This document shows, one piece after another, positions 9,926 through 26,518 of a stretch of 30,797 nt of DNA. The first letter of the stretch is position 1. Each line of letters opens with the position of its first letter. Location: positions 1-30,797 of the IMG/VR virus record IMGVR_UViG_3300009788_000242; one strand, 5' to 3'. Source of the stretch: a virus. Under the pieces are notes generated by a model, which was not told where the DNA came from, searched no databases, and saw only the letters and a list, made by a program, of their open reading frames with translations. The position numbers were made by a program, and so were the translations under genes.

Positions 9926-9940
9926 TAAACATTGCTTAGG

Positions 9941-12360: not shown

Positions 12361-12368
12361 TTCCGGAA
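12361..12368. promoter_or_regulatory. TTCCGGAA site before gene 12105-12341
   Basis: Single exact copy, 20 nt upstream of ATG 12341 and directly beside the T-rich tail of the terminator at 12370-12403. There is no TTGACA or -10 at the promoter spacing, so it is an isolated intergenic site of the stoperator type. Confidence 0.55.
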
Positions 12369-12369
12369 A

Positions 12370-12403
12370 ATTAAAGGGAGAGGGTCGATCTCGTTCGACC
12401 CTC
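12370..12403 (-). terminator. intrinsic terminator after gene 12425-12658
   Basis: Perfect 9-bp stem GAGGGTCGA / TCGACCCTC (12380-12388 and 12395-12403) with a 6-nt loop. Read leftward it is followed by CTCCCTTTAATTTT. It separates gene 12425-12658 from the two genes further left, which would need readthrough or a separate promoter. Confidence 0.7.
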
Positions 12404-12424
12404 GGTCCTCCCTCGGTCCCCGTT

Positions 12425-12658
12425 CTAGGCGTCTTCGGGCGAAAGCTCCTCTCCGGTTTGAGCGTCGAGTATAACCCAAGTGTCTTTGGTTCCGATCAGC
12501 AACCGTTGAATCTTGTAGGACCCATGAAGGGTCAGACTCGGAAGTCTTCGAAACTTGTCAAGTCCGATCTTGACCGCGTCTTCGTTGATAGCGGCTTTGA
12601 ATTCCGCTTTGACGCTAAGATGTTCGCGGTAAGTCCAGATCAAACGGTATTGGTGCAT
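12425..12658 (-). CDS. hypothetical protein, 77 aa
   Basis: Small basic protein. It is strand-rich at the start (YRLIWTYREHLSVKAEF), has a helix near residues 20-35, and ends in TWVILDAQTGEELSPEDA. ATG 12658 is chosen because a consensus GGAGG lies 7 nt upstream; a frame extension to 12730 has no initiation signal and overlaps the next gene. It is followed by the terminator at 12370-12403. Function unknown. Confidence 0.72.
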   Translation of the reverse strand: MHQYRLIWTYREHLSVKAEFKAAINEDAVKIGLDKFRRLPSLTLHGSYKIQRLLIGTKDTWVILDAQTGEELSPEDA

Positions 12659-12674
12659 GGTGTGACCTCCAGTG

Positions 12675-12917: not shown

Positions 12918-12994
12918 AGTGAGAGATCTCCAAGTCTCGGATAGAGCAAGAACGCGATTACGTCGAGGATCGTGTTTTCGATAGTGAGCAGCAT
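12914..12994 (-). CDS. 26-residue hydrophobic microprotein
   Basis: Very short frame: ATG 12994 with AGGA 8 nt upstream, ending in TGA that overlaps the next ATG (12914-12917). The peptide is hydrophobic in the middle (ILDVIAFLLYP) and so may sit in the membrane. The ribosome site plus the exact ATGA junction argue that it is real, or at least that it is a coupling leader for the next gene. It could simply serve to load ribosomes. Confidence 0.5.
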   Translation of the reverse strand: MLLTIENTILDVIAFLLYPRLGDLSL

Positions 12995-13004
12995 CTCAAG
13001 ATTC

Positions 13005-13178
13005 CTAGAAACGCCCGCGAGAGCAAGCCGAACCGTTCTCATTGAAGTAGACTCCGGTTGCAGTGTGGTTGAACGGAAGCTTCCGGATGATCGAAGGCGC
13101 GAAGTAGAAGATCGCGAACATGAACCCGAAGAAGATTCCCTCGATCAGGTCGGCGTTTGCTGCTAATGTCGTTTCCAT
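13005..13178 (-). CDS. 57-residue membrane protein, leaderless
   Basis: ATG 13178 lies 6 nt after the CATACT box of P7, with no ribosome site, as in the other leaderless genes. The 57 residues contain one aromatic hydrophobic helix (IFFGFMFAIFYFAPSII, about residues 15-31) and a polar C-terminus with one Cys. It is too short for ordinary gene-length cutoffs, but the promoter placement fixes the start. It is followed after 10 nt by the 26-residue frame. Function unknown. Confidence 0.7.
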   Translation of the reverse strand: METTLAANADLIEGIFFGFMFAIFYFAPSIIRKLPFNHTATGVYFNENGSACSRGRF

Positions 13179-13229
13179 AATCTGAGTATGAACCTTCCGG
13201 AAGGATATGTCAAGAGAAAACTTCCGGAA
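13179..13229 (-). promoter_or_regulatory. leaderless promoter P7 with two TTCCGGAA sites
   Basis: Minus strand: TTGACA (13208-13213), 17-bp spacer, CATACT (13185-13190), 6 nt, ATG 13178. TTCCGGAA at 13195-13202 (within CCTTCCGGAAGG) and 13222-13229, centres 27 bp apart. Confidence 0.84.
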
Positions 13230-13251: not shown

Positions 13252-13482
13252 CTATTCCGCCTTCTTCTTCAGGGCTTCCACGATGACTTTGCGGGCTACT
13301 CGTTTTTCATCCAAGTAGAAGGTAGCTCGGAAATGGTCGCGTTGTTGACGTGTCCGCGCTTCTACGGGGACGATGTAGCATTGAAACCTTCCCTCACGGT
13401 AAGAGCCATACCCGCATCGTGTCGCGCTTGCAACCGCTCTCGCCTTTTCGATTAGTTCTGTTAAGGTCAACGTCACTTCCAT
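13252..13482 (-). CDS. hypothetical basic protein, 76 aa, leaderless leftward gene
   Basis: First gene of the leftward island inside the head module. A short N-terminal helix (LTELIEKARAVASAT, residues 7-21) is followed by strands (GRFQCYIVPVEA; HFRATFYLDEKR) and a basic C-terminal helix (KVIVEALKKKAE). ATG 13482 is 6 nt after CATACT of P8. The small alpha-beta-alpha plan and basic charge would allow nucleic-acid binding, but I see no motif. Family unknown. Confidence 0.74.
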   Translation of the reverse strand: MEVTLTLTELIEKARAVASATRCGYGSYREGRFQCYIVPVEARTRQQRDHFRATFYLDEKRVARKVIVEALKKKAE

Positions 13483-13533
13483 AATCCAAGTATGAAGCTT
13501 CCGGAAGGATATGTCAAGCGAAAACTTCCGGAA
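13483..13533 (-). promoter_or_regulatory. leaderless promoter P8 with two TTCCGGAA sites
   Basis: Minus strand: TTGACA (13512-13517), 17-bp spacer, CATACT (13489-13494), 6 nt, ATG 13482. TTCCGGAA at 13499-13506 and 13526-13533, centres 27 bp apart. It is divergent from the protease operon. Confidence 0.84.
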
Positions 13534-13659: not shown

Positions 13660-14613
13660 ATGCTCCGAAAAAAGATCGACCCTGACCTGACAAAAGTCAA
13701 AGTCGTGGAGGAAGAAGGTTCTGACGCTGGATTCCTCGAAGGCTATGCCAGTGTGTTCAATAACGTCGACCTGGGAGGCGACGTCGTCCGTAAAGGCGCT
13801 TTCAAGAAAACGATCAAAGAGCGATTGAAGAAGGGGATGATTCTCCTCTACGACTCGCACGCGGTCTATGAAGGAACAAGCGCGGTCATCGGCGTCGTCA
13901 CGAAGGCGGAAGAGCGCGACGAAGGTCTTTGGTTCCATGCTCCGTTCTCCGCTGTCTCGCGTGCGCAAGACGTTCGAACAAAGGTTCGAGAGAAGATCCT
14001 GAAGGCACTCAGCTTTGGGTATGACGTGATCAAGTCGCAACCCTCCACTGAATTCGGCGAGGATGTTGCAGAGTTGACAGAGCTTCGGCTTTGGGAGATC
14101 TCAGTTGTTCCGTGGGGAATGAATCCGAAGGCGGCGACTGATGTTGTTAAGGGAATCGGTCTCGGACAAGAGTTCGCATTCGCGGCGAAGGATCATCCGT
14201 TCGACCCTGTCGGCGCTCGGAAGCGCATCGCGGAGTGGGCGGAAAACGATCCGTTCCTCTACTCGAAGGCGTTCGTATGGGCGGATGCGGAGAACGATCA
14301 ATCTCCGCTCGGGTACGCGCTTCAAGTTGTTGACATCGTCGACGGGGAACCCAAGTACATTTTGAACGCGGCGAAGACGGCGCTCAGTCGGACTCGTGGC
14401 GACGAAGACGCTGTCTGGAAGAAAGATAGCGACGCTATCGTAATCGACCTGAAGACTCTCTATCAGAAGGTCGAAGAGGAATTTCCGGGAGTGGAGACTC
14501 CGGACGAAGATTTTCAGGGTCTGTCCGAACTGTCGAAAGGCGTTCAGGATTTCGCCCTCGTAACATCCCTCCGGAATATTCGTGAGGGATTGGGAACATT
14601 GTCCGCGAAGTAG
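13660..14613 (+). CDS. prohead maturation protease, HK97 type, with C-terminal extension
   Basis: Serine protease that clears scaffold and delta domains during head maturation. Residues 25-165 show the family: GYASVFNNVDLGGDVVRKGAF, His67 in LLYDSHAVYEG, Ser118 in KALSFGYDV, and LRLWEISVVPWGMNPKA. A C-terminal part (about 180-270; HPFDPVGARKRIAEWA ... DGEPKYILNAAKTAL) resembles a separate module found on several phage head proteins that may act as scaffold or ligand. AGGAAGG lies about 11 nt before ATG. It is the first gene after the leftward island. Confidence 0.92.
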   Translation: MLRKKIDPDLTKVKVVEEEGSDAGFLEGYASVFNNVDLGGDVVRKGAFKKTIKERLKKGMILLYDSHAVYEGTSAVIGVVTKAEERDEGLWFHAPFSAVSRAQDVRTKVREKILKALSFGYDVIKSQPSTEFGEDVAELTELRLWEISVVPWGMNPKAATDVVKGIGLGQEFAFAAKDHPFDPVGARKRIAEWAENDPFLYSKAFVWADAENDQSPLGYALQVVDIVDGEPKYILNAAKTALSRTRGDEDAVWKKDSDAIVIDLKTLYQKVEEEFPGVETPDEDFQGLSELSKGVQDFALVTSLRNIREGLGTLSAK

Positions 14614-14645
14614 GCGGGTGACCTCGGTCACTACTTAGACACTTC

Positions 14646-14653
14646 TTCCGGAA
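14646..14653. promoter_or_regulatory. TTCCGGAA site between protease and capsid genes
   Basis: Exact copy in the 121-nt gap 14614-14734. The gap also holds a GTGACC-TC-GGTCAC inverted repeat just after the protease stop; it has no U-run. No promoter boxes like P1-P8 accompany the site. Confidence 0.5.
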
Positions 14654-14734
14654 GCCGTTAGAGTACGCCGACAGAGGGTTTGGCAGCCGATCCTTGATCA
14701 CTGCGAGAGAGACTTCGAAACAGGAAAGGGAATC

Positions 14735-16033
14735 ATGGACGTACAAGTAGAACTTAAGAAAATCAACGAGACTTTCGCAGGGTTCAAGACTCTGAACGAG
14801 GAAGCTCTCGAACAGGTCAAGCAGTACGGCAAGGTCAGCGGTGACCTTGACGCGAAGATGACGAAGATGTCCGACGACATGGACGCTTCGGAAAAGAAGC
14901 TGAACGAGCGACTCGCCGCAATCGACGTCAAGGCGGAGAAGGTCGAGGCACTGGAGAAACAGGTCGAGGACTTCAAGGCGTTCGAGTCCGAGGTTCGGTC
15001 GCGGTCGAACAGCGGCGGCGGAGCGGGCGGTGACGATGGCGCAACCGTCAAGGCGATGCGGAAGTCGATCTTCTGGAAGGCGATTCGTGGCGGATTGTCT
15101 CCGGATGTTCTGGACTTTCACAAGGGTTTCAGTGACGACGAGAAAGAGTTCATTTCCGCCAGTGCTCAGAAGGCGATGATTGTCGGCGACGACGAAGCGG
15201 GCGGCTACCTTGCGCCCGAAGAGTACGTCAATGAGATCATCGCGGACACCGTCGAGTTCTCTCCGATTCGGAGTCTTGCTCGTATCCGGACGACTAGCCG
15301 TAAGGCGGTCACGATTCCGAAGAAGACCGGAAGCATCTCCGCGACATGGGTCGAGGAGACCGGCACTCGCGCCGATTCCGGAAATCCCACTTACGGGATG
15401 GAGCGGCTTCAGTCCTATGAGATGCACGGTCTCATCAAGGTCTCAAAGCAGGAACTCGAAGACGCGGCGTTCAACGTCGAGGGTTTCATTCGGGAAGAGC
15501 TTTCCGAGCAGTTCGGATCGGCGGAAGGCACTGCCTTCGTTTCCGGAACCGGAACGGGTCAACCTCAGGGCGTTCTCTCGAATGCCAGCGTTGCTTCGGT
15601 GAACTCCGGTCACGCGACCGAGATCACGGCGGACGGTCTGATCGATCTGTACTTCGAGCCGAAAGAGGTCTATGCGAACAATGGCGTCTTCGTCATGGCG
15701 CGGTCGACCCTGAAAGCCATCCGGAAGTTGAAGGACGGTCAGGGTCAGTACCTCTGGACTCCGGGATTCAAGACCGACGCGAAACCGGCTACGATCATGG
15801 ATCGTCCCTATGTGGTCGCTCCGGACATGCCGACTATCGGGGCGGATACTTACCCGGTTGTCTTCGGCGACTGGCGGCGGGCGTACTACATTCTCGACCG
15901 GGTTGTGATGGAGATCATCACGGACCCGTATTCGAGCAAGAGTGTAGGGATGATCGAGATCAGCGCTCGGAAGCGTGTCGGCGGTCAAGTCGTTGCACCG
16001 TTCGCGATCAAGAAGCTGAAGATCTCGGTCTAG
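14735..16033 (+). CDS. major capsid protein, HK97 fold
   Basis: Forms the icosahedral shell. Residues 1-80 are a charged coiled coil (delta/scaffold domain) followed by a Gly/Ser/Asp-rich stretch near 90-105, the likely region of protease cleavage. The shell part begins with GGYLAPEEYVNEII (about 155-170) and continues with the E-loop region (TIPKKTGSISATWVEETGTRA), the spine helix (SKQELEDAAFNVEGFIREELSEQFG), GTGTGQPQGVL, and a final P-domain strand set with SVGMIEISARKRVGG. It is 432 residues, normal for the family. AGGGA sits just upstream of ATG 14735. It depends on the protease encoded upstream. Confidence 0.95.
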   Translation: MDVQVELKKINETFAGFKTLNEEALEQVKQYGKVSGDLDAKMTKMSDDMDASEKKLNERLAAIDVKAEKVEALEKQVEDFKAFESEVRSRSNSGGGAGGDDGATVKAMRKSIFWKAIRGGLSPDVLDFHKGFSDDEKEFISASAQKAMIVGDDEAGGYLAPEEYVNEIIADTVEFSPIRSLARIRTTSRKAVTIPKKTGSISATWVEETGTRADSGNPTYGMERLQSYEMHGLIKVSKQELEDAAFNVEGFIREELSEQFGSAEGTAFVSGTGTGQPQGVLSNASVASVNSGHATEITADGLIDLYFEPKEVYANNGVFVMARSTLKAIRKLKDGQGQYLWTPGFKTDAKPATIMDRPYVVAPDMPTIGADTYPVVFGDWRRAYYILDRVVMEIITDPYSSKSVGMIEISARKRVGGQVVAPFAIKKLKISV

Positions 16034-16051
16034 GGAACTAGACCTTCTGAC

Positions 16052-16077
16052 GGGACCTTTCCGGAAGGTTAGGTCCC
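16052..16077 (+). terminator. hairpin with TTCCGGAA in its loop after the capsid gene
   Basis: GGGACCT (16052-16058) pairs with AGGTCCC (16071-16077); the loop is TTCCGGAAGGTT with the exact site at 16059-16066. It lies 18 nt after the capsid stop. There is no U-run, so a processing or attenuation hairpin is as likely as a terminator. It may lower expression of downstream genes relative to capsid. Confidence 0.45.
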
Positions 16078-16100
16078 ATTCAAACAGGAGAAAATGAATC

Positions 16101-16601
16101 ATGGGAGCTTCAGTACTAAACTACTTTGAGCAAGCAACGGCGGCGGGTGACAACAAGCTGAATCTCGGCGGTACCGCTGACATCACGGGAACCCTGCAAC
16201 GTCACGGCGCAAGCGTCGGCGACGCACTGACCTATACGAAAGCAATTCGGATCACTCTCGCAGAACTGAACGCGGGCTATGAGCTTGTCGCGGCTGTCAC
16301 GGGCAAGTCGATCCGAGTTGTGAACTACTACCTTCGGATCATCGGCGGCGCGGCTACCGCTGCAACCGACGTTCGCATTCAGGACGATGAAGGGACTCCG
16401 GTCGTTGTCGTCACGGCGGCTGTGGCGGCTTTGACGGAGGATATCGAGATCAGCGGACAGAACACTGTGGCGAACGTCACGAAGGGCGCGGGTTGGATGG
16501 CGCTTCTCACGGCGGGGCAAGCTCTTGACATCGTCAAGACCGGCGCTACCATGACGACTCTGTCGCACGTCGACGTCATTGTCCAGTATCAGATCGGCTA
16601 A
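16101..16601 (+). CDS. putative capsid decoration/structural protein, 166 aa
   Basis: Beta-rich, Ala/Thr/Val-rich protein directly downstream of the capsid gene. The centre (ELVAAVTGKSIRVVNYYLRIIGGAATAATDVRIQDDEG) and the end (TMTTLSHVDVIVQYQIG) resemble a family of virion proteins often found in this location, which I recognise by pattern only. It is expected to bind the head surface. AGGAG lies 10 nt before ATG 16101. It shares location and composition, but no clear sequence identity, with the next gene. Confidence is good for a structural role and moderate for decoration. Confidence 0.72.
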   Translation: MGASVLNYFEQATAAGDNKLNLGGTADITGTLQRHGASVGDALTYTKAIRITLAELNAGYELVAAVTGKSIRVVNYYLRIIGGAATAATDVRIQDDEGTPVVVVTAAVAALTEDIEISGQNTVANVTKGAGWMALLTAGQALDIVKTGATMTTLSHVDVIVQYQIG

Positions 16602-16605
16602 TTCC

Positions 16606-16613
16606 TTCCGGAA
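16606..16613. promoter_or_regulatory. TTCCGGAA site in the gap 16602-16665
   Basis: Exact copy inside CCTTCCGGAAGG, 4 nt after the stop of the preceding gene and about 50 nt before the next start. No promoter boxes are seen. Confidence 0.5.
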
Positions 16614-16665
16614 GGATTCGATCAAATTGAAGAGAGGAAATTTCGAATAAGGAAGGAAACAGAAA

Positions 16666-17097
16666 ATGTTCAAACTTGCAGGCAACGTAAAGGTAAATCG
16701 GGCGATTGACTACGCTCAGATCACTGCCGACAAAACAGGGGACGTGATCATCGATACTCAGGGATACGACGACGTCTACTTCCTGATTCACGTTCATGCA
16801 GCGGCTACCGCTGACGGTGACCACTACTTCACTGCGAAAGTGCATGAAGGGGACAACTCGGCTCTGTCCGATGCGGCTTTGGTCACGGATGGCACCACGT
16901 ATCCGACCCGCTACTTCGGGGAGTCGCCTTCCGACCGTGCTATCGATCTGGTAGCTCAGGCGGACAGCTTCGTCGTGTTCGGTGTCCGTCTTCACAAGCG
17001 GTACATTCGGCTGTCTCTTATAGAGACCGGCACGTCTGACATCACGATCAGCGCGGTTGCAGTCCTCGGAAATCCGAAGACGGCTCCGACTGTCTAA
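16666..17097 (+). CDS. putative head structural protein, 143 aa
   Basis: Beta-rich protein with IIDTQGYDDVYFLIHVHAA (about 27-45), then an extended acidic section, FVVFGVRLHKRYIRLSLIETGTSDITISAVAVLG (about 102-135) and a short tail. The '..KRYIRL...TG....AVAVLG.P' ending is a pattern I know from small virion proteins encoded next to capsid genes. AAGGAA precedes ATG 16666 by about 9 nt. It ends the capsid group, as a strong terminator follows. Exact role unknown. Confidence 0.72.
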   Translation: MFKLAGNVKVNRAIDYAQITADKTGDVIIDTQGYDDVYFLIHVHAAATADGDHYFTAKVHEGDNSALSDAALVTDGTTYPTRYFGESPSDRAIDLVAQADSFVVFGVRLHKRYIRLSLIETGTSDITISAVAVLGNPKTAPTV

Positions 17098-17127
17098 CGA
17101 AGTCGCCTTTCGCGACGGTCCGGATGA

Positions 17128-17163
17128 GATCTCGCGCCTTTCGGGGCGCGGGGTCTTGTCCTT
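17128..17163 (+). terminator. strong intrinsic terminator after the capsid group
   Basis: GATCTCGCGCC (17128-17138), 6-nt loop, GGCGCGGGGTC (17145-17155): 11 paired positions counting G-U pairs. It is followed by TTGTCCTTTG. A smaller GTCGC/GCGAC hairpin lies just before (17102-17116). It divides head genes from connector and tail genes. Confidence 0.75.
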
Positions 17164-17181
17164 TGCTGTACTGTGGTGACT

Positions 17182-17874
17182 ATGCCGATCTTCGATGCAA
17201 TCTCTCAAGCTGAAAGTTCTTCCGGAAGGGCGCGGTCGCGGGGCGTCGATGTCACGCGAACGGTTGACCCGGAATTTGCGCCTGTCACAGCGGCGGATGT
17301 AATCGCTCATTTGAAACTCCCTTCCGGAAGTTCCGAAACCAACATTGACCGGATCATCGGAGCGGTCGTCGGCGCGATTGAGAAGTATACGAATCGTGGC
17401 TACATCAAACAGACGATCCGTCAGACGCATGATCAAGTCGGACCCATGCTCAAGCTTTGGGTTCGTCCGATTCTCTCAATAGTTACAATCCAGACAATCG
17501 CTTCCATGTCGGCGGATGACCTCGTGCTAATGGACTCTGACGACTATGCGGCTTCGCTCGATAAGGACAAGATCCGACCGCGTTCAGCGTGGCCATCACA
17601 TCGCGGCTTTGCGTCTTTCATTGCGACCTATACAGTCGGGTACAACGATCACGTGGACAGTCCGACCGCTGAGCAGATTGTCACGGCACAAGAAGCGGTT
17701 CCGACCGATGTTCGAGAAGCGATTCTTCAATGGATCGGTCATCTATACAACAACCGGGAAGGACAATCCGGGGAACTGAAATACGAAGTCGTTGCGAAGC
17801 GGATCGGTATCATTCCCGCGAACGTGGCGATCATGCTCGAAGGTTACCTTGACCGGAGACTGACTCTCTCATGA
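17182..17874 (+). CDS. head-tail connector protein, HK97 gp6 / phiE125 gp8 type
   Basis: Adaptor that docks below the portal. The 230 residues contain the family's helical start, PVTAADVIAHLKLPSG (about 35-50), IDRIIGAVVGAIEKYTNRGYI, a beta centre with RPILSIVTIQTIA, FIATYTVGY, and the ending VPTDVREAILQWIGHLYNNREG. I choose ATG 17182; an in-frame GTG lies 9 nt upstream and neither has a ribosome site. TACTGT (17169-17174), 7 nt before the ATG, could be the -10 of another leaderless start, but no -35 is seen. Two TTCCGGAA sites lie in the first 150 nt of the gene (17220, 17322). Confidence 0.82.
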   Translation: MPIFDAISQAESSSGRARSRGVDVTRTVDPEFAPVTAADVIAHLKLPSGSSETNIDRIIGAVVGAIEKYTNRGYIKQTIRQTHDQVGPMLKLWVRPILSIVTIQTIASMSADDLVLMDSDDYAASLDKDKIRPRSAWPSHRGFASFIATYTVGYNDHVDSPTAEQIVTAQEAVPTDVREAILQWIGHLYNNREGQSGELKYEVVAKRIGIIPANVAIMLEGYLDRRLTLS

Positions 17875-18248
17875 AGCGGACGAAAAAGAACCGTCCGGAA
17901 ACTGGAGACCTTCGATTTTACCTCGCTCTTGAACGTCCGGAAACTACTACCGATGACATCGGCGGGAGTCCTCGTCAGTCATGGACGTTGATCACTTCGT
18001 TATGGTGCGATGTGATGCCACGTTCAGCGATGGAACGGATCGTAGGTTCTCAGCTTGCGGAGATGACTTCTCACGTTATCGAGTCGCACTACTGGGACGA
18101 TTGGAAGAAGGGAGATCGACTCTCCTATACGGACGCGAACACATCCAAGACGCATTACTTCCGGATACTCGCGCGGCTCAATATCAATCAATCAGCGACC
18201 CGGCTCTTCTGGGAAGCTGAAGAGTTCGACGGGTCAAGTGCCGAATAG
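17871..18248 (+). CDS. head-tail joining (head closure) protein
   Basis: 125 residues, coupled to the connector gene by ATGA at 17871-17874. The size, position and pattern (GDLRFYLALERPETTTDDIGGSP near the start, SLWCDVMPRSAMER, HVIESHYWDDWKKGDRLSY, YFRILARLNI) fit the SPP1 gp16/HK97 gp7-like head-tail joining family. It would close the portal channel after packaging and give the tail a docking surface. Overlap with the next gene by 11 nt indicates a dense operon. Confidence 0.82.
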   Translation: MKRTKKNRPETGDLRFYLALERPETTTDDIGGSPRQSWTLITSLWCDVMPRSAMERIVGSQLAEMTSHVIESHYWDDWKKGDRLSYTDANTSKTHYFRILARLNINQSATRLFWEAEEFDGSSAE

Positions 18249-18798
18249 TAATTCTCCAATTGAAGCGAGGCTCATAGGCGCGACCGCGTTGCGGCGGAAG
18301 TTCGGTCTCATGGATCAGCGCTTGAGGGGCGCAATGAAGCGTCTTGTAAACGATCACTCACGGAAGCTGACGAACCGGGCGAAGAAAGAAGCTCCGGTCG
18401 ACATGGGACAGCTTAGAGCGTCCATACGTCCTCAGTTCTTCGCGAACGGGCTAACCTCCAGAATCTCGACAAACGTCGGCTATGCGGCTTATGTGGAGTA
18501 CGGAACGGGTCCTCTGGGACAGGTAACCTCGAAGAACACTCCGAAGGGCTACGTTCATTCAGTCGCCATTAAACGACCTCCGCCCGATGTCATCTTTGAA
18601 TGGGTCTGGAGGAACCGAAAGAACATGAACGGTTCGGGATGGACTAAGGCACAAGCGCGGGGCGTCGCGTTCCTTATCGGTCGAGCGATTGGGAAGCGTG
18701 GTCTCAGGGCGCGGGCGTTCATGGGACCGGCTTACGAAGAGACGAAGAGAGAATTCAACCGAGACGTAAGGCGCGAGTTCAAAAGGACGGCGAAGTAA
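18238..18798 (+). CDS. HK97 gp10-like tail/neck protein
   Basis: 186 residues from a GTG start overlapping the upstream stop. It has a basic helical N-terminus (ALRRKFGLMDQRLRGAMKRLV), then KEAPVDMGQLRASI, VGYAAYVEYGTGP and a C-terminal RARAFMGPAYEET. The A.Y.EYGTGP motif is characteristic of the HK97 gp10 family, placed between the connectors and the tail terminator in long-tailed phages. Role: tail completion or neck assembly. The Arg/Lys-rich C-terminus is longer than average. Confidence 0.85.
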   Translation: MPNSNSPIEARLIGATALRRKFGLMDQRLRGAMKRLVNDHSRKLTNRAKKEAPVDMGQLRASIRPQFFANGLTSRISTNVGYAAYVEYGTGPLGQVTSKNTPKGYVHSVAIKRPPPDVIFEWVWRNRKNMNGSGWTKAQARGVAFLIGRAIGKRGLRARAFMGPAYEETKREFNRDVRREFKRTAK

Positions 18799-19220
18799 TG
18801 GCAGTAATCAAAGGCGGCTCTTCTCTCTACGGCGTATCACTCGCCATTTTCCAGAAGGTATCCGTCGCACTTCAAAACGATTGCGAGGTATTCGACGGTT
18901 TCCTTCCGGAAGAAAAGACTTCGGTCGATTTCCCTTACGCGATTATTGAAGACATGATCGAGGGACAAGAGAACCTTCTGAACCGCGCGGTTCGAGTGAC
19001 TGTTGTCACGATCAAGATCTACACGGCATATCGAGGAACGAAACGAGCGAAGCTTCTTGCAGGGAAACTTGTTGACGCACTGGAAGAGATGGACCTCTCG
19101 CCTGAGGAAGGATGGGCGTTCCCAAAGACACAATACCTCGACACTCGTTTCCTGCAAGAGGACGATGTCCGTTTCACGGCGATTATGCGATTCGAGGTCA
19201 GGGCGCAGAAACTCGCATGA
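18798..19220 (+). CDS. tail completion / tail terminator protein
   Basis: 140 residues; ATG shares one base with the previous stop. Features include GVSLAIFQKVSVALQNDCEVFDGF, PYAIIEDM, a strand-helix region VVTIKIYTAYRGTKRAKLLAGKLVDALEE and an ending FTAIMRFEVRAQ. The order and pattern fit the lambda gpU / DUF3168-like tail terminator fold, which caps the tail tube and joins it to the head. It contains TTCCGGAA at 18904. The family assignment rests on position plus pattern. Confidence 0.75.
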   Translation: MAVIKGGSSLYGVSLAIFQKVSVALQNDCEVFDGFLPEEKTSVDFPYAIIEDMIEGQENLLNRAVRVTVVTIKIYTAYRGTKRAKLLAGKLVDALEEMDLSPEEGWAFPKTQYLDTRFLQEDDVRFTAIMRFEVRAQKLA

Positions 19221-19627: not shown

Positions 19628-19923
19628 CCGACGAACTGTCTCCAGTCCTCGCAAATTGCTTTCGCGACGACAGGGTTCTTCATGTCGTCGACAAAGGGCA
19701 TGATCGGCTGTAACTTCTTTCCCATTGTCAGCACAGTCATAAACAAATCGAACCCGGCGTTCAGATCGCTGAGTTCTTGGGGCGTCAGTTTGTATCGAAC
19801 TGTGACCGCTCCACTATCACGGGACATGACCGCAGGGAGCGTTTGAAATTCCGACTGATCTTCCGCGATCTTAATCTTCCGGAAAGATTCGTCTCCAATG
19901 AATACAGGATCTTGAGGTGACAT
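19624..19923 (-). CDS. hypothetical protein, 99 aa, lone leftward gene
   Basis: A single leftward gene among rightward tail genes. It starts with a polar segment, then KIKIAEDQSEFQTLPAVMSRDSGAVTVRYKLTPQELSDLNAGFDLFMTVLT in the middle, and ends in a helix (NPVVAKAICEDWRQFV). ATG 19923 lies 6 nt after TATTCT, as in the leaderless group. A TTCCGGAA lies inside the gene (19877). Its strand, isolated position and promoter style make it a likely moron. No family recognised. Confidence 0.72.
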   Translation of the reverse strand: MSPQDPVFIGDESFRKIKIAEDQSEFQTLPAVMSRDSGAVTVRYKLTPQELSDLNAGFDLFMTVLTMGKKLQPIMPFVDDMKNPVVAKAICEDWRQFVG

Positions 19924-19966
19924 GGTTTTAGAATACGCGCTTCTCCCGGCGCGGTTTCCTTCCGGA
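19924..19966 (-). promoter_or_regulatory. degenerate leaderless promoter of gene 19624-19923
   Basis: TATTCT (minus, 19930-19935) ends 6 nt before ATG 19923, exactly as in P1-P8. There is no TTGACA at 17 bp and no TTCCGGAA in the spacer; a TTCCGGAC is found further up (19960-19967). It looks like a family member without the operator, perhaps constitutive or weak. Confidence 0.5.
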
Positions 19967-19979
19967 CCCGATAATTAAC
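19967..19979 (+). promoter_or_regulatory. CCGATAATTAAC box upstream of gene 20030
   Basis: Second exact copy of the 12-mer seen at 13602-13613, again about 50 nt upstream of the first gene of a rightward operon. Possible -10 element for the host or phage sigma factor; no -35 match. The rest of the 19924-20029 gap holds only the leftward promoter and the AGGAT ribosome site of gene 20030. Confidence 0.5.
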
Positions 19980-20029
19980 ACTCGAAGAAGGTTCGCGACA
20001 GGCGGACCGGACGAAAGGATCTAGGATCT

Positions 20030-20383
20030 ATGGCAAGAGTAAGTTTAACAAAGACAACCGCTCCGGGTCCGTACACAGCGGATGGCGTCGCAATCACTTG
20101 GACGGCGGCAGACACTACCAACAAAGAAGAGTTCGTCATGGAGGGTAACGACCTCCTCCTCGTCCGCAACGAAGATGCTTCTCCGCACACCTTCACGATT
20201 ACATCGGCGGCGGATGCAATGGGACGACTCGGAACTATCGCGGGTGAATCCCTTGCGGCGAGCGCGTGGAAGTGTCTCGGACCATTCAAGAAACTAACCG
20301 GCTGGCAGCAGTCGACAGGCGTCCTCTACATCGAAGCGGATGACGTCAACATCGAATGGGCGATTATCAAGCTCAGCAACTAG
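20030..20383 (+). CDS. putative virion protein, 117 aa, tandem paralogue A
   Basis: Beta-rich protein with no signal peptide. Recognisable segments are GPYTADGVAITWTAAD, NKEEFVMEGNDLLLVRNEDASPHTFTI, and GPFKKLTGW followed by LYIEADDVNIEWAIIKL. The next gene encodes a protein of exactly the same length with these segments in the same order, so the two arose by tandem duplication. Encoded just before the tail tube, it is likely a tail or head surface protein. AGGATCT precedes the ATG. First gene of the operon that carries the tail genes. Confidence 0.78.
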   Translation: MARVSLTKTTAPGPYTADGVAITWTAADTTNKEEFVMEGNDLLLVRNEDASPHTFTITSAADAMGRLGTIAGESLAASAWKCLGPFKKLTGWQQSTGVLYIEADDVNIEWAIIKLSN

Positions 20384-20391
20384 AAGGGAGA

Positions 20392-20399
20392 TTCCGGAA
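20392..20399. promoter_or_regulatory. TTCCGGAA site between ribosome site and start of gene 20402
   Basis: Exact copy placed between GGGAG (20386-20390) and ATG 20402 in an 18-nt gap. A protein bound here would sit at the junction of the two paralogous genes, and the site occupies nearly the whole gap. Confidence 0.5.
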
Positions 20400-20401
20400 A
20401 A

Positions 20402-20755
20402 ATGGCAAGACAAGTACATACACCTGATGACGCTCCGGGAAGTTTCCCGACTGCGGGCGTCGCTCTCACTCAGACGGCGGCTGACGCTGTCAACTTCGAA
20501 GAGTTCACAATGACCGGGCGCGATCTTTTGATCGCATGGAATCCGGACGTTGGTCCTCACACAGTTACCATCGACTCGGTCGCGAATCAGCAAGGGCGTA
20601 CAAAAGACGTCACGGCGGATTCCATCGCGGCGGGCGCGACTCACGTTTACGGACCCTTCACCGAACGGCGGGGATGGGTTCAGGGAGACGGAACGCTGAA
20701 CTTTGAGGCGGACTCCGCCTTGATCGAATTCAGTGTCATTCGGATGCCGACCTGA
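20402..20755 (+). CDS. putative virion protein, 117 aa, tandem paralogue B
   Basis: Paralogue of gene 20030-20383: same length and same order of segments (GSFPTAGVALTQTAAD, NFEEFTMTGRDLLIAWNPDVGPHTVTI, GPFTERRGW, LNFEADSALIEFSVIRM). Identity is clear in the core (EEF.M.G.DLL; PHT.TI; GPF..) and low elsewhere, so the duplication is old. Both starting MAR, they may form alternating or hetero-oligomeric rings or decorate different sites. A GGGAG ribosome site is interrupted from the ATG by a TTCCGGAA site. Confidence 0.78.
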   Translation: MARQVHTPDDAPGSFPTAGVALTQTAADAVNFEEFTMTGRDLLIAWNPDVGPHTVTIDSVANQQGRTKDVTADSIAAGATHVYGPFTERRGWVQGDGTLNFEADSALIEFSVIRMPT

Positions 20756-20762
20756 TCGAAGA

Positions 20763-20770
20763 TTCCGGAA
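20763..20770. promoter_or_regulatory. TTCCGGAA site before the tail tube gene
   Basis: Exact copy 7 nt after the stop of the paralogue B gene and about 35 nt before ATG 20806, in a 50-nt gap that also holds the AGGAG ribosome site. Confidence 0.5.
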
Positions 20771-20805
20771 GGACGATCTTTCCAGATAGGAGATAAAAAA
20801 ACAGC

Positions 20806-21240
20806 ATGGCAAGTTCAGCGATTTCCGCCTTCGGAACTTTACTTCAGATCGGTGACGGCGCGACTCCCGAAGTTTTCGCAACGGTCGCAGAATTGCGGAC
20901 TATCTCGGGTCCGTCCCTCAACGCCGATACAATCGACGTCACAACTCACAACACGGCGACACCTTTCCGGCGCTTCATTTCCGGACTGATCGACGGCGGA
21001 GATGTCACGTTCGATATCAACTTCATCCCTCAGGACCCTTCGCACTCTTACAGTGCGGGGATTCTGAAAGACGTGGTCAATCGGACCGCTCGAAACTTGA
21101 AGATTGTCTTTCCGGACAGTGGCAACACTGAATGGATCATTCCGGTTATCTTCGTGAACTTCGAGGTCTCGTCCGATCCCGCCGATGTTCTCATGGCTTC
21201 GATCACTGCAAAGGTCGCGGGTCCGCCTACGTTCACGTAA
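20806..21240 (+). CDS. major tail (tube) protein
   Basis: 144-residue beta-rich protein forming the tail tube. It begins with a strand-rich region, then FATVAELRTISGPSLNADTIDVTTHNTATPFRRFISGLIDGGDVTFDINF (about 23-72), the hallmark of the lambda gpV-like tail tube family, and ends with WIIPVIFVNFEVSSDPADVLMASITAKVAGPPTFT. AGGAG precedes the ATG. Position before the G/GT chaperones and tape measure is the standard siphovirus order. A strong terminator follows, as expected for a highly expressed gene. Confidence 0.9.
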   Translation: MASSAISAFGTLLQIGDGATPEVFATVAELRTISGPSLNADTIDVTTHNTATPFRRFISGLIDGGDVTFDINFIPQDPSHSYSAGILKDVVNRTARNLKIVFPDSGNTEWIIPVIFVNFEVSSDPADVLMASITAKVAGPPTFT

Positions 21241-21300
21241 AGCGGCTATCTTCCCTGACGGGCGAAGAGGATCACAGCAGTGCTACGGAGTGTTTGAGTT

Positions 21301-21335
21301 GAGCGAGGGAGTTCCGGTCCTCTCCCTCGCTTTAA
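21301..21335 (+). terminator. intrinsic terminator after the tail tube gene
   Basis: AGCGAGGGAG (21302-21311) pairs perfectly with CTCCCTCGCT (21322-21331) around a 10-nt loop and is followed by TTAATC. It would reduce transcription into the chaperone and tape measure genes. Other parts of the 21241-21399 gap contain nothing I can name. Confidence 0.78.
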
Positions 21336-21399
21336 TCACGTCACGGTCTCGGCAACGCAAGGAATCGGGATCTCAGGAAGACCGGAGAAAGAAGATTCG

Positions 21400-21786
21400 A
21401 TGAGCGAATCAAAAGCTACGATAGCGAAACAAACAGCGGGGATCGACGGTCGTCCGACTGTCGCCATCAAACTAGGCGGGCAAACCCGCCATCTACTTGT
21501 CACATTCGGGGCGCTCCTCAAGATCGAACAACTTACCGGAAAGTCTATTATCAGCGGCGAAGCATGGGGCGCTGATCTCAAAATCCGGGATGTGAAGCTT
21601 ATGACTCTCGCTGCGCTGTCATGGTGCGACGAGAAGCTGACGGTCGAAGAAGTCGGCAAGTGGATACACATTCAAAACATGCCTTTCATTCTTCAACGGG
21701 TCACGGAGGCATGGACAAAAGGTTTGTCGGCGACTGATCCAGTCGAGGATTACCGCCCTTTGGAGATACGCCCACAGGCAGCGTAA
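21400..21786 (+). CDS. tail assembly chaperone, gpG-like
   Basis: 128-residue helical protein, in the place of lambda gpG: after the tail tube and before the tape measure. It contains RPTVAIKLGGQTRHLLVTFGALLKIEQLTG and a helical region with LMTLAALSWCDEKLTVEEVGKWI, a common pattern for this family. Together with its frameshifted GT form it coats the tape measure and recruits tube protein. Near its end the heptamer CCCTTTG (21756-21762) is in the correct register for a -1 shift. The ribosome site is weak (AAGAAGA). Confidence 0.82.
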   Translation: MSESKATIAKQTAGIDGRPTVAIKLGGQTRHLLVTFGALLKIEQLTGKSIISGEAWGADLKIRDVKLMTLAALSWCDEKLTVEEVGKWIHIQNMPFILQRVTEAWTKGLSATDPVEDYRPLEIRPQAA

Positions 21787-22187
21787 ACGAATCTAAGCTT
21801 GACTGGATTCGCTTGTGGGCATTTGCAAAATATGATCTCGGTCTTTCACGAACGGAGTTTCTCGGTCTCGCTCCTGTCGAATTCTATGCTCTTAAGGATC
21901 GCTGGATCTTTGGCAAGGAAGATCACGACTTCCGCTCCGCTCTCATTTGTACCGTTATCGCGAACGCGAACCGTTCAAAGAAGCAACGACCCTTCAAGGT
22001 CAAAGACTTCATTCCGGAAAGACGAGCAAAGAACAAGGAAGCCGATGCGCGTCAGACATGGAAGCAACAACTCGAACTCGCGAAACAACTCACCGTCGCT
22101 TTTGGCGGGAAGCTTCCGGGCGCGGGTAAGAAACGGCGGCGGCGTAGAAGAAGAGTTATTCCGGAAGGATCTAAAGAGGGAACCTGA
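21400..22187 (+). CDS. tail assembly chaperone gpGT, predicted -1 frameshift product, about 262 aa
   Basis: The frame 21738-22187 has no good start of its own (the first possible is a TTG at 21813 with no ribosome site) and lies -1 to the gpG frame. At 21756-21762 gpG codons read C CCT TTG, a canonical X XXY YYZ slippery heptamer. Slipping back one base after residue 121 continues as GDTPTGSVNESKLDWIRLWA, joining gpG to the T domain (LWAFAKYDLGLSRTEFLGLAPVEFYALKDRW), whose pattern is usual for gpT-type domains. The Arg-rich stretch KKRRRRRRR near the end is notable. The last base overlaps the tape measure ATG. The shift itself is inferred from architecture and the heptamer, both well matched to lambda G/GT. 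Confidence 0.8.
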
Positions 22188-25100
22188 TGGCTGTTAAGGT
22201 AGGAGACCTTTTCGTCGAACTCGGTCTGAAGCTCAGCAAATTCTCGAAGGGTATCGAGGACATGCAGCGGAGCTTGAAGGATGTTGCGGACGACATGAAG
22301 AATGTCGGCGCAACGATGACCGCTACGATTACGGCTCCTATCGTCGGAATGGGCGTTGCGTCCCTGAAAGCTTTCGGGGATTTCGAGCAAGGAATGAACC
22401 GCGTCAAAGCAGTCACTCAACAGAGCGGCGCGGCGTTCGACGCGATGAACTCGACTGCTCTTGAACTGGGAAGGACGACTCAGTTCAGCGCTTCTCAGGC
22501 GGCGGACGCTATGGGGTTCCTCGCAATGGCGGGCTTCAAGGCGAACGAGATCATCTCCGCCATGCCTTCGACCCTTCAGCTTGCGGCGGCGGGCGCTATG
22601 GACCTCGGACGCGCGGCGGATATCACATCAAACATTCTCACCGGCTACGGTCTTGCGGTCTCAGACCTCAGTCATGCAAACGATGTTCTAGTCACCGGAA
22701 TGACGAACGCGAATGTCGATCTCTCAATGCTAGGGGAATCGTTCAAGATGGTTGGTCCCATTGCGAAGGCAGCGGGCGTACAGTTCGAAGAGACTGCGGC
22801 AATGATCGCGTTACTCGGGAACGCGGGTATTCAGGGGAGCATGGCGGGGACAAGTCTCCGGAAGGCGATCACATCTTTGATTGCTCCCTCGAAACAGCAA
22901 GCGGAGATCATGGAAAGACTCGGTATTTCCGTTACGGACACTGTCGGAAAGTTCGTCGGCTTCGCTGACATCGTCGGACAGCTAGAAGAGGCAAGCGCGG
23001 GCGCGGGGGACATGATGAAACTGTTCGGTCTCCGCGCGGGTCCTGCTATGCAGTCGGCGGTTGATCAAGGTTCCGATGCGATCCGGAACATGACTAAACT
23101 CATGGAGGAGAACGCAGGGGTCGCGGAGCGAGTCGCGAAAACTCAGCTTGAGGGTTGGAAGGGAGCAATGACGAAGCTGAAGTCAGCGGTCGAAGGAACG
23201 CTGATCTCTATCGGTAGTATTCTTGCGCCCACTGCTCACGCAATCGCGGAAGCTTTCACATCTCTAGCGGGTAAGGTGACAGCGCTTGCGGAGATCTTCA
23301 AAGAGCTTCCGCAATCGCTTCAGACGGGGATCGTCGCCTTCATTGGAATCGCGGCGGCTATCGGTCCCGTGATCCTGATCTTCGGTCACTTACTGGGAGC
23401 GGCGGCAAATTTGAAGATGCTCGGTCCGCTTCTTGGCGGAGTGAGCAAAGCAATGGTAACGTTCGGGGCAAGCTCTAAGAAGTTGGGCATTGGGCAAGCG
23501 GCGATCTCCAGTCTTCGGGGAGCGGCGGTTCTTGCGACTCCCGCTCTGATGGCGCTCGGGATCGCTGTCGCGGCTATGGCGGTCATGGCTGTAGGTAAGG
23601 GTCTTTGGAATGTCGCGGATGCTATTGGCGGATGGAGCACGGCGGCGAAGGACGCGGCGAAGAGTGTCAAGCAGCTAGAAGACGCTACGAAGTCGGAAGA
23701 GCGAATCCTAAAAGAGCTTCAGCAATCCTTGATCGATGTCAAGAACGGCGTGCATGAATTCGACGATGCGTTCCGGCGCTCTCTTGAACAAGTCGGTCAA
23801 GCTAAGTCCGTTTGGGAGAAGTTCAAAGACGCTGTCCTGAATGTCATCGCACCATGGCGCGGGGCGGCTCAAGCACTCGATCAAATAGCGGACATGATAC
23901 GACTCGCCAAAGGCGAGACGAAAGACATGGGGGACGTTGTTGTTCGTGAGTTGCAACGGATCAATGGAGCGGTTCTCCGCAATGCACGGGCGGAAGCTGA
24001 CGCACGGATTCAACTGATACTGACCATCCGAACGGAGAGGAAAAGACAGGCACAAGAGGAAGCATCTCGGAAAGCAATTGAAGCGACGACTCGCGCGGAA
24101 GAAGCGAAAGCGAAAGTCAATAAACGAGCGGAACAGAATCTTCAGGCGCGGATCGATATGCTGAAGCGCTATGAGGACCGCGCGAAGAAAATCGTCAAGA
24201 TCCAACAACAACTCGAACAGATGGACGAAGAGATCCTTTCGTCCGGACGAGAGCTTCAAAACATGTTCGCGAAAGTCGAGCAGTCGATGGAGCAAGTCGG
24301 TAAAGGCGTCGAGGTCGATATCATCGTTCCGCTAAAAGATCGGCTCGGTCCCGCAATCATGGGAGTGATCAAGGATGCAAACGAACTTGCAGGGGCGTTT
24401 GAACATCTCGGCGTCACATCGACAAACGCTCTTACGAGGGGAGCGGAAAAAACAGAAGCGGCGTTCTTGCGTGTGAAGCTTGCTTATGAGGAAGGGAAGG
24501 CATCGGCGGTTGACTTCTTTAATGCTCTCGTCGCCAATCTTCAAAAACAACTCGAAGTCGCGCAAGCAACCGGCGCGGTGACAGATCAGATTCAGGCGGA
24601 CCTGACGGCGGCGCAACTGAAGCTCGCAGAGCTTGGCGTTGACCTCGACGACAACATCAAGAAAACGAATGAATGGGGTGACGCATGGGAGACGGTCTCA
24701 ACTGCTCTAACTGATATGGGCGGGAAGATCGCTGATCTCATTTGGAGTGGCGGCAATCTCGGGGAGGTCATGGTCAACACCTTTACCGAGATCGGAAAGG
24801 CGATTACTCGTCTCGCTCTGGAGAGCATCGCGAAGGACCTCGTCAACTCCCTGAAGAACGGTGAGAACGCGCTGATCGCTTTCGGGAATTCTCTTTCGAA
24901 GCTCTTCGGTTTTGGAGGCGGCGGGGCGGACGTAGTTACCGACGCGGCGGGAGGGGCGGCGGATAAAGCTTCCGGAGAGATAGGGAAAGCGCTCTCGGGT
25001 CCTATTGGAATGGTGACGTCGATTGTCGACTCCATTGTCGGAATCCTCGGCTACTTCCAGACGCGACGGATGGAGAAGGACATTGGTCGTCTCGAAGTCA

Positions 25101-26083
25101 CGTCGCGCGAACTGAAGAATATCAGTCTCGATCAGCTAGGCAAGATGAACGAGTACCTTCCCTGGCTAAGCGAACTCAAGTTCTTAGGTAGTATTGACAA
25201 ATATACATGGTCGATCTTCGATCTCCTGATGAAGGGCGGCGGAGCTTCCGGAAGAGAGCAGACCGATCAGCAAGTCGAGTACCTCGAACAGATCTCGGAA
25301 AGAGTTCAAGCGTCGAACGATAAACTCGCGAAACGGATTGACGAAGTCGGCGTCCGCGCGGAAGAGGCGGCGGAGATGATCAAACCGTTGATCATGCACG
25401 AACGCCAACAAGCGGTTGAGACAGAAGCTCTCACTCGTGTTACGAAGAAGCTGAACAAGGAACAAGCGGAAGCGGTCAAGCTTGGAACGAAACAAAACAA
25501 AATCACTTTTAAGTTAGGCGGAACCACTGAAGACCTCGTCGATGTTACTGAGGATCTAGAGGACGGTCAAGGCGATCTCGCTCGGGAAACAACCGCCAGA
25601 CTCAGAACGGAAGAGACAGCGTATGATGGCGCGGCGCGAACAACTGCTACTTACGCGAGATCCCTTGATGACCTTTCCAAGACAGTGTCAGGCGCGGCGT
25701 CTATAGTTTCCGGAGGGATGAGCGATATCGCGGTTAACGCGAAGTTCGCGGGTGAAGAGATCAAGAAGGCGTCTGACAAGATCAAGTTCGCGGCGCAGTC
25801 TGTCGGCGCGGTTATAACCTCGGGTCCGCGCACTCTAGCAGGACCGGGCGGAGCGATCAGTCAACCCTCCGCTCCGGCTCCGCCTTCCGGAGGAAACGCG
25901 GGAGCGGCACCAACAGGTTTCATCGATCCATGGACAGGAACGCTAACCAACATTGGCAACCGAACAGCGGCGAACTACGGAAACAATTCTCTTCAGCTTC
26001 AGGTGAATGTGAACAACGCGGACGCTCGACAAGTAGCGGACACGATGATTGAAACGTGGCGGCAACGCGGCGTCGACTTATAG
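22187..26083 (+). CDS. tape measure protein
   Basis: 1298 residues, the longest gene. It sets tail length and is ejected with the DNA. The N-terminal 350 residues match the TP901-type phage minor tail domain: GDLFVELGLKLSKFSKGIEDM, FGDFEQGMNRVKAVTQQSG, LELGRTTQFSASQAADAMGFLAMAGF, TNANVDLSMLGESFKMVGPIAKAAGV, LLGNAGIQGSMAGTSLRKAI. Hydrophobic helices at about 375-400 and 420-465 may be membrane-inserting. Long coiled coils follow at about 480-700 and 980-1110, then a Pro/Gly-rich end. At about 0.15 nm per residue the tail would be near 190-200 nm. Only one TTCCGGAA lies in its 3.9 kb. ATG overlaps the previous stop by one base. Confidence 0.93.
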   Translation: MAVKVGDLFVELGLKLSKFSKGIEDMQRSLKDVADDMKNVGATMTATITAPIVGMGVASLKAFGDFEQGMNRVKAVTQQSGAAFDAMNSTALELGRTTQFSASQAADAMGFLAMAGFKANEIISAMPSTLQLAAAGAMDLGRAADITSNILTGYGLAVSDLSHANDVLVTGMTNANVDLSMLGESFKMVGPIAKAAGVQFEETAAMIALLGNAGIQGSMAGTSLRKAITSLIAPSKQQAEIMERLGISVTDTVGKFVGFADIVGQLEEASAGAGDMMKLFGLRAGPAMQSAVDQGSDAIRNMTKLMEENAGVAERVAKTQLEGWKGAMTKLKSAVEGTLISIGSILAPTAHAIAEAFTSLAGKVTALAEIFKELPQSLQTGIVAFIGIAAAIGPVILIFGHLLGAAANLKMLGPLLGGVSKAMVTFGASSKKLGIGQAAISSLRGAAVLATPALMALGIAVAAMAVMAVGKGLWNVADAIGGWSTAAKDAAKSVKQLEDATKSEERILKELQQSLIDVKNGVHEFDDAFRRSLEQVGQAKSVWEKFKDAVLNVIAPWRGAAQALDQIADMIRLAKGETKDMGDVVVRELQRINGAVLRNARAEADARIQLILTIRTERKRQAQEEASRKAIEATTRAEEAKAKVNKRAEQNLQARIDMLKRYEDRAKKIVKIQQQLEQMDEEILSSGRELQNMFAKVEQSMEQVGKGVEVDIIVPLKDRLGPAIMGVIKDANELAGAFEHLGVTSTNALTRGAEKTEAAFLRVKLAYEEGKASAVDFFNALVANLQKQLEVAQATGAVTDQIQADLTAAQLKLAELGVDLDDNIKKTNEWGDAWETVSTALTDMGGKIADLIWSGGNLGEVMVNTFTEIGKAITRLALESIAKDLVNSLKNGENALIAFGNSLSKLFGFGGGGADVVTDAAGGAADKASGEIGKALSGPIGMVTSIVDSIVGILGYFQTRRMEKDIGRLEVTSRELKNISLDQLGKMNEYLPWLSELKFLGSIDKYTWSIFDLLMKGGGASGREQTDQQVEYLEQISERVQASNDKLAKRIDEVGVRAEEAAEMIKPLIMHERQQAVETEALTRVTKKLNKEQAEAVKLGTKQNKITFKLGGTTEDLVDVTEDLEDGQGDLARETTARLRTEETAYDGAARTTATYARSLDDLSKTVSGAASIVSGGMSDIAVNAKFAGEEIKKASDKIKFAAQSVGAVITSGPRTLAGPGGAISQPSAPAPPSGGNAGAAPTGFIDPWTGTLTNIGNRTAANYGNNSLQLQVNVNNADARQVADTMIETWRQRGVDL

Positions 26084-26093
26084 GAGAAACGAC

Positions 26094-26507
26094 ATGGCAA
26101 CATTCTTGTATGACACGGGTCGCGACAACTTCGCGAACGGAAATATTGATTGGGTCAACGACGACATTCGTTTGATCTTCGTCGACGATGCGGATTACAC
26201 GGTTGACTCCGCGAATGATGCGACTCTTGCAGACATTGGAGCACCCGCGCGGGTCGCAACGGGAGCGGCGTCGTTATCGAGCAAGTCGTCGACGGCGGGA
26301 ATTGTCGATGCAGCGGATCATACGATGAACTCTGTTAGCGGGGATGTGTTCGAAGCAATTGTCATTGTTGCTTACGATACAGGGACTCCGGACAACTCTC
26401 TCTTGATCGCGTACATCGACAACTATTCCGGTCTTCCGGCAACTCCGAACGGCGGGAACATCACGGTCGCATTCCCGAACGACTCGAACAAGATCTTCAA
26501 GCTGTAG
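26094..26507 (+). CDS. putative tail structural protein, 137 aa
   Basis: Beta-rich protein beginning MATFLYDTGRDNFANGNIDW and continuing VNDDIRLIFVDDADYTVD, VSGDVFEAIVIVAYDTGTPDNSLLIAYID, then LPATPNGGNITV and a final IFKL. I recognise this from small tail-associated proteins in many siphophages, often with several paralogues, though the biochemical role is not settled. AGGAG lies 8 nt before ATG 26094; frames extending further upstream overlap the tape measure gene. Placed between tape measure and adhesion-type genes, it is likely a distal tail component. Confidence 0.8.
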   Translation: MATFLYDTGRDNFANGNIDWVNDDIRLIFVDDADYTVDSANDATLADIGAPARVATGAASLSSKSSTAGIVDAADHTMNSVSGDVFEAIVIVAYDTGTPDNSLLIAYIDNYSGLPATPNGGNITVAFPNDSNKIFKL

Positions 26508-26510
26508 TCT

Positions 26511-26518
26511 TTCCGGAA
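26511..26518. promoter_or_regulatory. TTCCGGAA site in the gap 26508-26545
   Basis: Exact copy 3 nt after a stop codon in a 38-nt gap; the GGGAAGGA ribosome site of the next gene follows. No promoter boxes are seen. Confidence 0.5.

Follow-up and report, generated by a model that had tools for sequence, protein, structure and literature searches.

An octameric palindrome repeated across an uncultured phage fragment, paired at promoters and scattered through gaps and genes, as a candidate dispersed operator

What role could be played by a single octamer, TTCCGGAA, that recurs throughout a fragment of an uncultured phage? The stretch of DNA in question (the window) is the 30,797-base IMG/VR virus record IMGVR_UViG_3300009788_000242, an incomplete phage fragment with a GC content of 0.54. 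An earlier reading made from the letters of this DNA (the sequence-only reading) had held that nearly every gap between its late genes carries one copy of the octamer or a close variant, and had taken the stoperators of L5-like phages as the model. TTCCGGAA is a perfect 8-bp palindrome, identical to its own reverse complement, with YTTCCGGAAR as its extended form, and 54 exact copies occur in the window, approximately one per 570 bp, against 1.13 expected from dinucleotide shuffles. With our own gene models, which were made by codon scoring and reading of the sequence and are least certain for the small early genes, 22 copies are found in 2,055 bases of gap (10.7 per kb) and 32 in genes (1.11 per kb), a density about ten times higher in gaps, and an automatic gene caller gave similar totals (25 in gaps and 29 in genes). 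Equal density in gaps and genes, one of the outcomes that the sequence-only reading had set against itself, was thus not observed. Our preferred reading, held with about even confidence, is that of dispersed-operator silencing, in which one dimeric regulator, most likely a phage repressor, would act both on pairs of sites at promoters and on single sites elsewhere.

The most telling arrangement of the octamer is found at promoters, most of which lie outside the span covered by the sequence-only reading. Eight minus-strand genes are preceded by one shared unit, which reads on the minus strand as TTCCGGAA-N8-TTGACA-N5-TTCCGGAA-N4-[TATTCT/CATACT/TATAGT]-N6-ATG, with one palindrome in the spacer between the -35 and -10 boxes, where all eight promoters have a copy, and the other just upstream of the -35 box. 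The units occupy positions 1443-1487 (operator pair 1453/1480, gene 1134-1436), 1897-1941 (operator 1907 and the variant TTCCGGGA at 1934, gene 1552-1890), 2215-2259 (pair 2225/2252, gene 1957-2208), 2569-2613 (pair 2579/2606, gene 2275-2562), 3099-3143 (pair 3109/3136, gene 2667-3092), 3816-3870 (pair 3826/3863, gene 3513-3809), 13185-13229 (pair 13195/13222, gene 13005-13178) and 13489-13533 (pair 13499/13526, gene 13252-13482), those from 2215 onwards being conserved in a relative, IMGVR_UViG_3300009788_000311 (L002), which is about 79% identical overall. The paired palindromes are 27 bp apart, except for a spacing of 37 in the divergent unit 3826/3863, whose upstream copy at 3863 occupies the -35 position of a putative plus-strand promoter for the gene starting at 3898 (3863-3891, with TATTCT at 3886-3891 followed by six bases and the ATG at 3898). 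Eight further promoters of the same layout are added by L002, giving 16 in two phages, and since the -10 box and the ATG are separated by 6 nt in every one of them, their transcripts would almost certainly be leaderless. Matches having TTGACA and ten of the twelve consensus bases were restricted, in the first 13.7 kb, to these eight operator-promoters; among the contigs returned from IMG/VR no further one had the exactly spaced pair with a TTGACA box, nor did any GTDB genome. The promoter sites have been kept in L002 even though the surrounding DNA has drifted in places to 64-75% identity. A palindrome between the -35 and -10 boxes holds the classical position of a repressor site, and the layout matches repressor-operator anatomy; the genes behind the eight promoters are probably early genes.

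Outside these promoters, single copies are found in the gaps of the late region. Between positions 12361 and 26518 the sequence-only reading had listed seven exact copies, all of which are real, correctly placed and outside the gene models, as are two variants that it described at 9896-9903 and 19960. The same span holds 21 exact copies, with 11 in gaps (including the promoter pairs 13195/13222 and 13499/13526) and 10 in genes, and the first of the seven (12361-12368), for which there is no counterpart in L002, falls between minus-strand early genes, not late ones. Within the late block (13660-26545) the density is 8.1 per kb in gaps and 0.82 per kb in genes, with 6 of the 16 sites lying in the 5.8% of bases that are gap (binomial p=1.8e-4) and shuffled late gaps yielding 0.009 sites against 6 observed, so that the claim of non-random gap placement is borne out. 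Its wording of nearly every gap was nevertheless too strong: from 14614 on there are ten late plus-strand gaps no shorter than 18 bp, of which six carry an exact site, eight at least TCCGGA and two neither. The six sites are located upstream of the major capsid gene (14646-14653), after that gene in the loop of GGGACCT...AGGTCCC (16059-16066), 4 nt past a stop codon (16606-16613), in an 18-bp gap between a Shine-Dalgarno sequence and an ATG (20392-20399), 7 nt past a stop codon (20763-20770) and 3 nt past another (26511-26518). Sequence variants occur in gaps at 9896-9903 (GTCCGGAC), 17118-17125 (GTCCGGAT) and 19960-19967 (TTCCGGAC, upstream of the TATTCT-N6-ATG of the minus-strand gene 19624-19923), the first of these being the only representative in the gaps of the upstream block 3898-11841. 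Five late gap sites could be compared with L002, of which the first four listed are identical and that at 20763 differs by a single change, reading TTCCGGAG; the site at 26511 lies outside L002 coverage. Conservation of gap sites, which had been suggested as a check, is therefore real but weak support by itself, as these late gaps are strongly conserved overall (84-94% identity) and 40% of the other 8-mers in them have been kept too.

Two other explanations are specific to these late gap copies. They could be mainly operators of late promoters recognised by a sigma factor of the phage or host, for which the site at 14646, in the spacer of the plus-strand promoter-like match TAGACA-17-TAGAGT, and the sigma-70 region 2 protein encoded at 7304-7963, directly 3' of the terminase gene, might be taken as indications. 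The match at 14646 is weak, however, and its -10 box is not conserved in L002, while boxes of this kind are lacking at the other late sites, several of which are at most 10 nt past a stop codon, and this makes the explanation quite unlikely; the statement of the sequence-only reading that promoter boxes are lacking accordingly holds for most late gap sites, with 14646 as the exception. It is more improbable still that the late gap copies act at the RNA level as terminators or processing hairpins. The copy at 16059 does lie within a conserved hairpin (fold z -2.4), but for four of the six late gap sites the predicted fold is no more stable than in shuffles (z -0.4 to +0.8), a terminator scan remained at shuffle level, and the palindrome, which lacks a loop of its own, occurs equally in minus-strand promoters and inside genes. 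As most late gap sites fold like shuffled sequence, RNA hairpins were rejected as a general explanation.

Inside genes, a synonymous-codon null in which the protein and the codon usage were kept yielded 2.5 +/- 1.5 genic copies against the 32 present, a 13-fold excess which rules out codon bias as their origin. The genic copies are present in all three codon phases, and their flanks lean symmetrically towards Y...R (24 of 32 and 26 of 32), as is also seen at the promoters. Of 24 genic sites, 16 have been kept in L002, the figure being 21% for genic 8-mers at large and 30% for those matched in composition; where the amino acid inside a site is the same, the codon is identical 40 times out of 43, with 28.8 expected (p=6e-5), and a second relative (L003) keeps five genic sites. 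These comparisons point to a selection-like constraint on the DNA sequence itself, inside genes as well.

Genic sites conserved in two relatives are found in the terminase gene (6968-6975 and 7150-7157), the sigma factor gene (7381-7388), the portal gene (8080-8087) and the head morphogenesis gene (10291-10298). Conservation in L002 has been detected at 4487-4494, in thyX at 5032-5039, at 11232-11239, in the major capsid gene at 15376-15383, in the head-tail adaptor gene at 17220-17227 and 17322-17329, at 18904-18911 and 19531-19538, in a minus-strand gene at 19877-19884, and at 22159-22166. At other positions a variant occupies the site, namely TTTCGGAA in a relative for 4263-4270, CTCCGGAA in a relative for 8092-8099 and TTCCGGAC in relatives for 8395-8402 (both portal), TTCCGGAG in relatives for 10085-10092 (head morphogenesis) and, each in a relative, GTCCGGAC for 11959-11966 (in a minus-strand gene), TACCGGAA for 15541-15548 (major capsid) and TCCCGGAA for 22012-22019. 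A second thyX site (5175-5182) has been lost in a relative, and the gene carrying the site at 9666-9673 is absent from a relative. The remaining genic sites are those at 269-276, 908-915, 2040-2047, 25246-25253 (tape measure), 27103-27110, 28910-28917, 29607-29614 and 30240-30247.

Under the dispersed-operator reading, TTCCGGAA would be the operator of one dimeric DNA-binding regulator, the repressor being encoded outside the fragment or present within it in a form that was not recognised. This regulator would bind as a pair over each of the eight early promoters, covering the -35/-10 spacer and the DNA upstream of the -35 box, and the bound pair would exclude RNA polymerase and switch early transcription off. 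The same protein on the single late-gap and genic sites would act as a roadblock or silencer of through-transcription, keeping the late region quiet. Since the site is palindromic, such a block, if real, would be independent of orientation, unlike that of L5. What the sequence itself shows is the sites, their excess, their fixed layout at promoters, their enrichment in gaps and their conservation as DNA; we infer the protein itself, its identity as a repressor, its binding in common to all sites and the roadblock step. Several observations weigh against this reading. The proteins of the window include no recognisable repressor, integrase or other product of a lysogeny gene, and no repressor with the N-terminal helix-turn-helix (HTH) typical of L5, the window being an incomplete fragment, and a winged-helix guess for 839-1165 was dropped (single-sequence fold pLDDT 49, no database match). 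A search of GTDB genome contigs for the operator-pair pattern gave 0 matches, and hence no lysogen. Two late gaps (21241-21399 and 21787-21812) are without even the core TCCGGA, and conservation of the late gap sites does not exceed the general conservation of those gaps (p about 0.09). The palindrome, with its symmetric flanks, cannot be oriented as the asymmetric site of L5 is, and its genic density of 1.1 per kb resembles that of HIP1-type palindromes. Finally, the same octamer occurs at 1.4 per kb in an unrelated phage contig of different composition, which a phage-specific repressor does not predict.

This contig (IMGVR_UViG_3300045974_000806, referred to as G004) turned up in a pattern scan; it is a 110-kb tail-sheath phage contig with a GC content of 0.67, and apart from a faint portal match it has nothing else in common with the window. 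Of its 155 copies of TTCCGGAA, 135 are genic, where the codon null gives 9.75; the gaps are enriched (3.2 per kb), and the copies are spread more evenly than chance would have them, at 13-16 in each 10 kb (variance/mean 0.11, p=0.0004). A common element is present in four of its gaps, which has TTTTTGTnTTGnCTTCCGGAA at its end, a TTG-C box, and a TCCGGA-like half lying about 28 bp upstream. A Cro/C1-type HTH protein is encoded at 54406-54576, shortly upstream of a TTCCGGAA copy, and a Nif11-domain protein is encoded as well; one DNA methyltransferase family match was obtained in G004 and none in the window.

Such a contig gives room to the alternative that the scattered copies represent an iterated palindrome like HIP1, over-represented throughout the host and perhaps linked to a methyltransferase or to repair, which the phage has adopted, with only the promoter pairs being true operators. 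The octameric palindromic form, the genic density, which falls within the range of roughly 0.5-2.5 per kb for HIP1 and its substitutes (PMC4390886), the conserved genic sites in all codon phases and the many evenly spread, mostly genic copies of G004 are all consistent with it. Against it stand the tenfold gap density, which includes the precisely placed promoter pairs, and the great rarity of dense contigs. Only the phage family of the window and G004 stood out in viral scans; between 0 and 7 copies were counted in each of sixteen further phage contigs, one of them a helicase relative of G004 (G011) with none, and in each of five named phages, while nine plasmids representing eight phyla were not enriched. 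The compositions of G004 and the window also differ so sharply, with GGCC counts of 1714 and 2, respectively, that a shared host is unlikely. The HIP1-like alternative is the main rival where the scattered copies are concerned, though a less likely one. Either two unrelated phages have regulators for the same site, or some hosts have a HIP1-like iterated palindrome, and it is mainly because G004 leaves these two alternatives that our confidence in dispersed operators is not higher. The broader proposition, that one octamer serves as operator and roadblock, is maintained by selection both inside genes and between them, and is used by unrelated phages through a regulator family of wide occurrence or through a host factor that they share, is put forward only tentatively and we regard it as rather doubtful. 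Two candidate accounts were dropped in these surveys: Ser-Gly repeat genes account for several other TTCCGGAA-rich viral contigs, though not for the window or G004, and a Thermus-like host for G004 was rejected, since phiLo and MN1 carry 1 and 0 copies. A literature search found no paper on TTCCGGAA as a phage element.

The even spacing in G004, along with the dispersal of palindromes over both genes and gaps, might also suggest that the sites serve a protein organising or segregating DNA genome-wide (nucleoid-like, ParB-like or Noc-like) instead of a transcription repressor. This we consider unlikely, given that the spacing in the window is not even and that the sites are fixed in place with respect to both TTGACA and the -10 box across 16 promoters and, in the window, are concentrated at early promoters.

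The remainder of the window is that of a siphovirus-type phage, with genes for terminase, portal, protease, capsid, adaptors and tape measure, as well as a ThyX thymidylate synthase, and no tRNA was found in it. The nearest phage proteins are distant, with the terminase at 43% to Methanothermobacter and 41% to Gordonia phages, the capsid at 39% to a Rhizobium phage and the tape measure at 53% over 310 aa to a Microcystis phage, and therefore no host is indicated; an alignment of the terminase against GTDB genome contigs gave 0 relatives. GGCC is nearly missing from the window, its 2 copies comparing with 88 expected in genes by the synonymous-codon null, and the same is seen in the relatives, which likely reflects avoidance of a GGCC-cutting restriction enzyme. 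A 177-bp early gap without TTCCGGAA (3336-3512) holds the long imperfect inverted repeats GGGAGACGGATAG...CTATCCGTCGCCC and GTTTGAA...TTCAAAC and is possibly an origin, an attachment site or an RNA element. In a late gap, a very strong hairpin of 18 pairs (17122-17161, fold z -5.6), almost unchanged in L002, is likely a terminator or processing element. The gene 19624-19923 is the lone minus-strand gene within the late block and is moron-like; a leaderless-type -10 box (TATTCT-N6-ATG) specific to this gene precedes it, and a variant of the octamer, GTCCGGAA, lies upstream. In a further phage contig (G012, 60 kb examined) a non-palindromic iterated 10-mer, CCTCCCGGTT, occurs in 15 copies against 0.07 expected and is possibly an oriented stoperator or promoter element.

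Among known systems, L5-type stoperators are asymmetric 13-mers whose orientation follows transcription, with reversal abolishing the block (PMC9283540), and about 20-30 such sites, mainly intergenic and bound by monomers, are present per 50-kb genome (PMC9283540, PMC6550527). As in L5 and Bxb1 (Cluster A mycobacteriophages), the copies described here are numerous and genome-wide, some being located in early promoters and many just after genes, and silencing of through-transcription is the proposed role. Operators in early lytic promoters have their counterpart at the eight promoters of the window, which are presumed to be early. In contrast to L5 and Bxb1, the site is a perfect 8-bp palindrome with 54 copies in 31 kb, paired 27 bp apart at leaderless promoters, and its copies are not mainly intergenic, with more in genes than in gaps despite the higher gap density. 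A repressor acting at dispersed sites, as in the L5 model of the sequence-only reading, is still the best model, with its strongest support in the eight operator-promoters, which that reading had not listed; the particulars of that model do not carry over to a palindromic site with 32 of 54 copies in genes. Because these two defining features of L5, an asymmetric oriented site and a mainly intergenic placement, were tested and found lacking, the system would by analogy work like stoperator silencing while standing outside the L5 family. In phiC31, conserved inverted repeats serve as symmetric dispersed repressor sites. The sites of the window are likewise dispersed, as in phiC31 and R4, and symmetric as those of phiC31, and binding of a repressor to them is predicted. 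Stoperators of R4, like phiC31 a Streptomyces phage, have been reported in eight or more intergenic regions (PMC10276819). The sites of phiC31 and R4 are longer, far fewer and intergenic, with no genic set described in the literature consulted.

The SPBRE of SPbeta, a repeated 15-bp element in promoter regions with ten or so sites bound by the master repressor MrpR (PMC10516654), provides a further parallel as one repeated element across many phage promoters, with SPbeta lacking a genic set. A repeated, mostly intergenic element likened to stoperators has been described in T1 and Stevie (PMC4319613), which differs in being asymmetric and oriented, in belonging to lytic phages and in having no assigned function. 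The likeness to HIP1 in cyanobacteria lies in the octameric palindrome present about once per kb in genes, but HIP1 is a trait of host genomes tied to methyltransferases, whereas TTCCGGAA is enriched in gaps and fixed in promoters. The window is distinguished from all of these by how short the site is and how often it occurs, by the conservation of its genic copies and by the paired-operator promoters of apparently leaderless genes. Known dispersed-operator phages have a few tens of long, mostly intergenic sites; if the proposed reading is true, a palindrome conserved at the codon level in structural genes would represent silencing sites embedded in coding sequence. With the octamer shared by an unrelated phage, one can test whether phage-specific repressors or a host factor dictate such codes, and the 16 near-identical leaderless operator-promoters constitute a clean promoter and operator set for an uncultured phage group.

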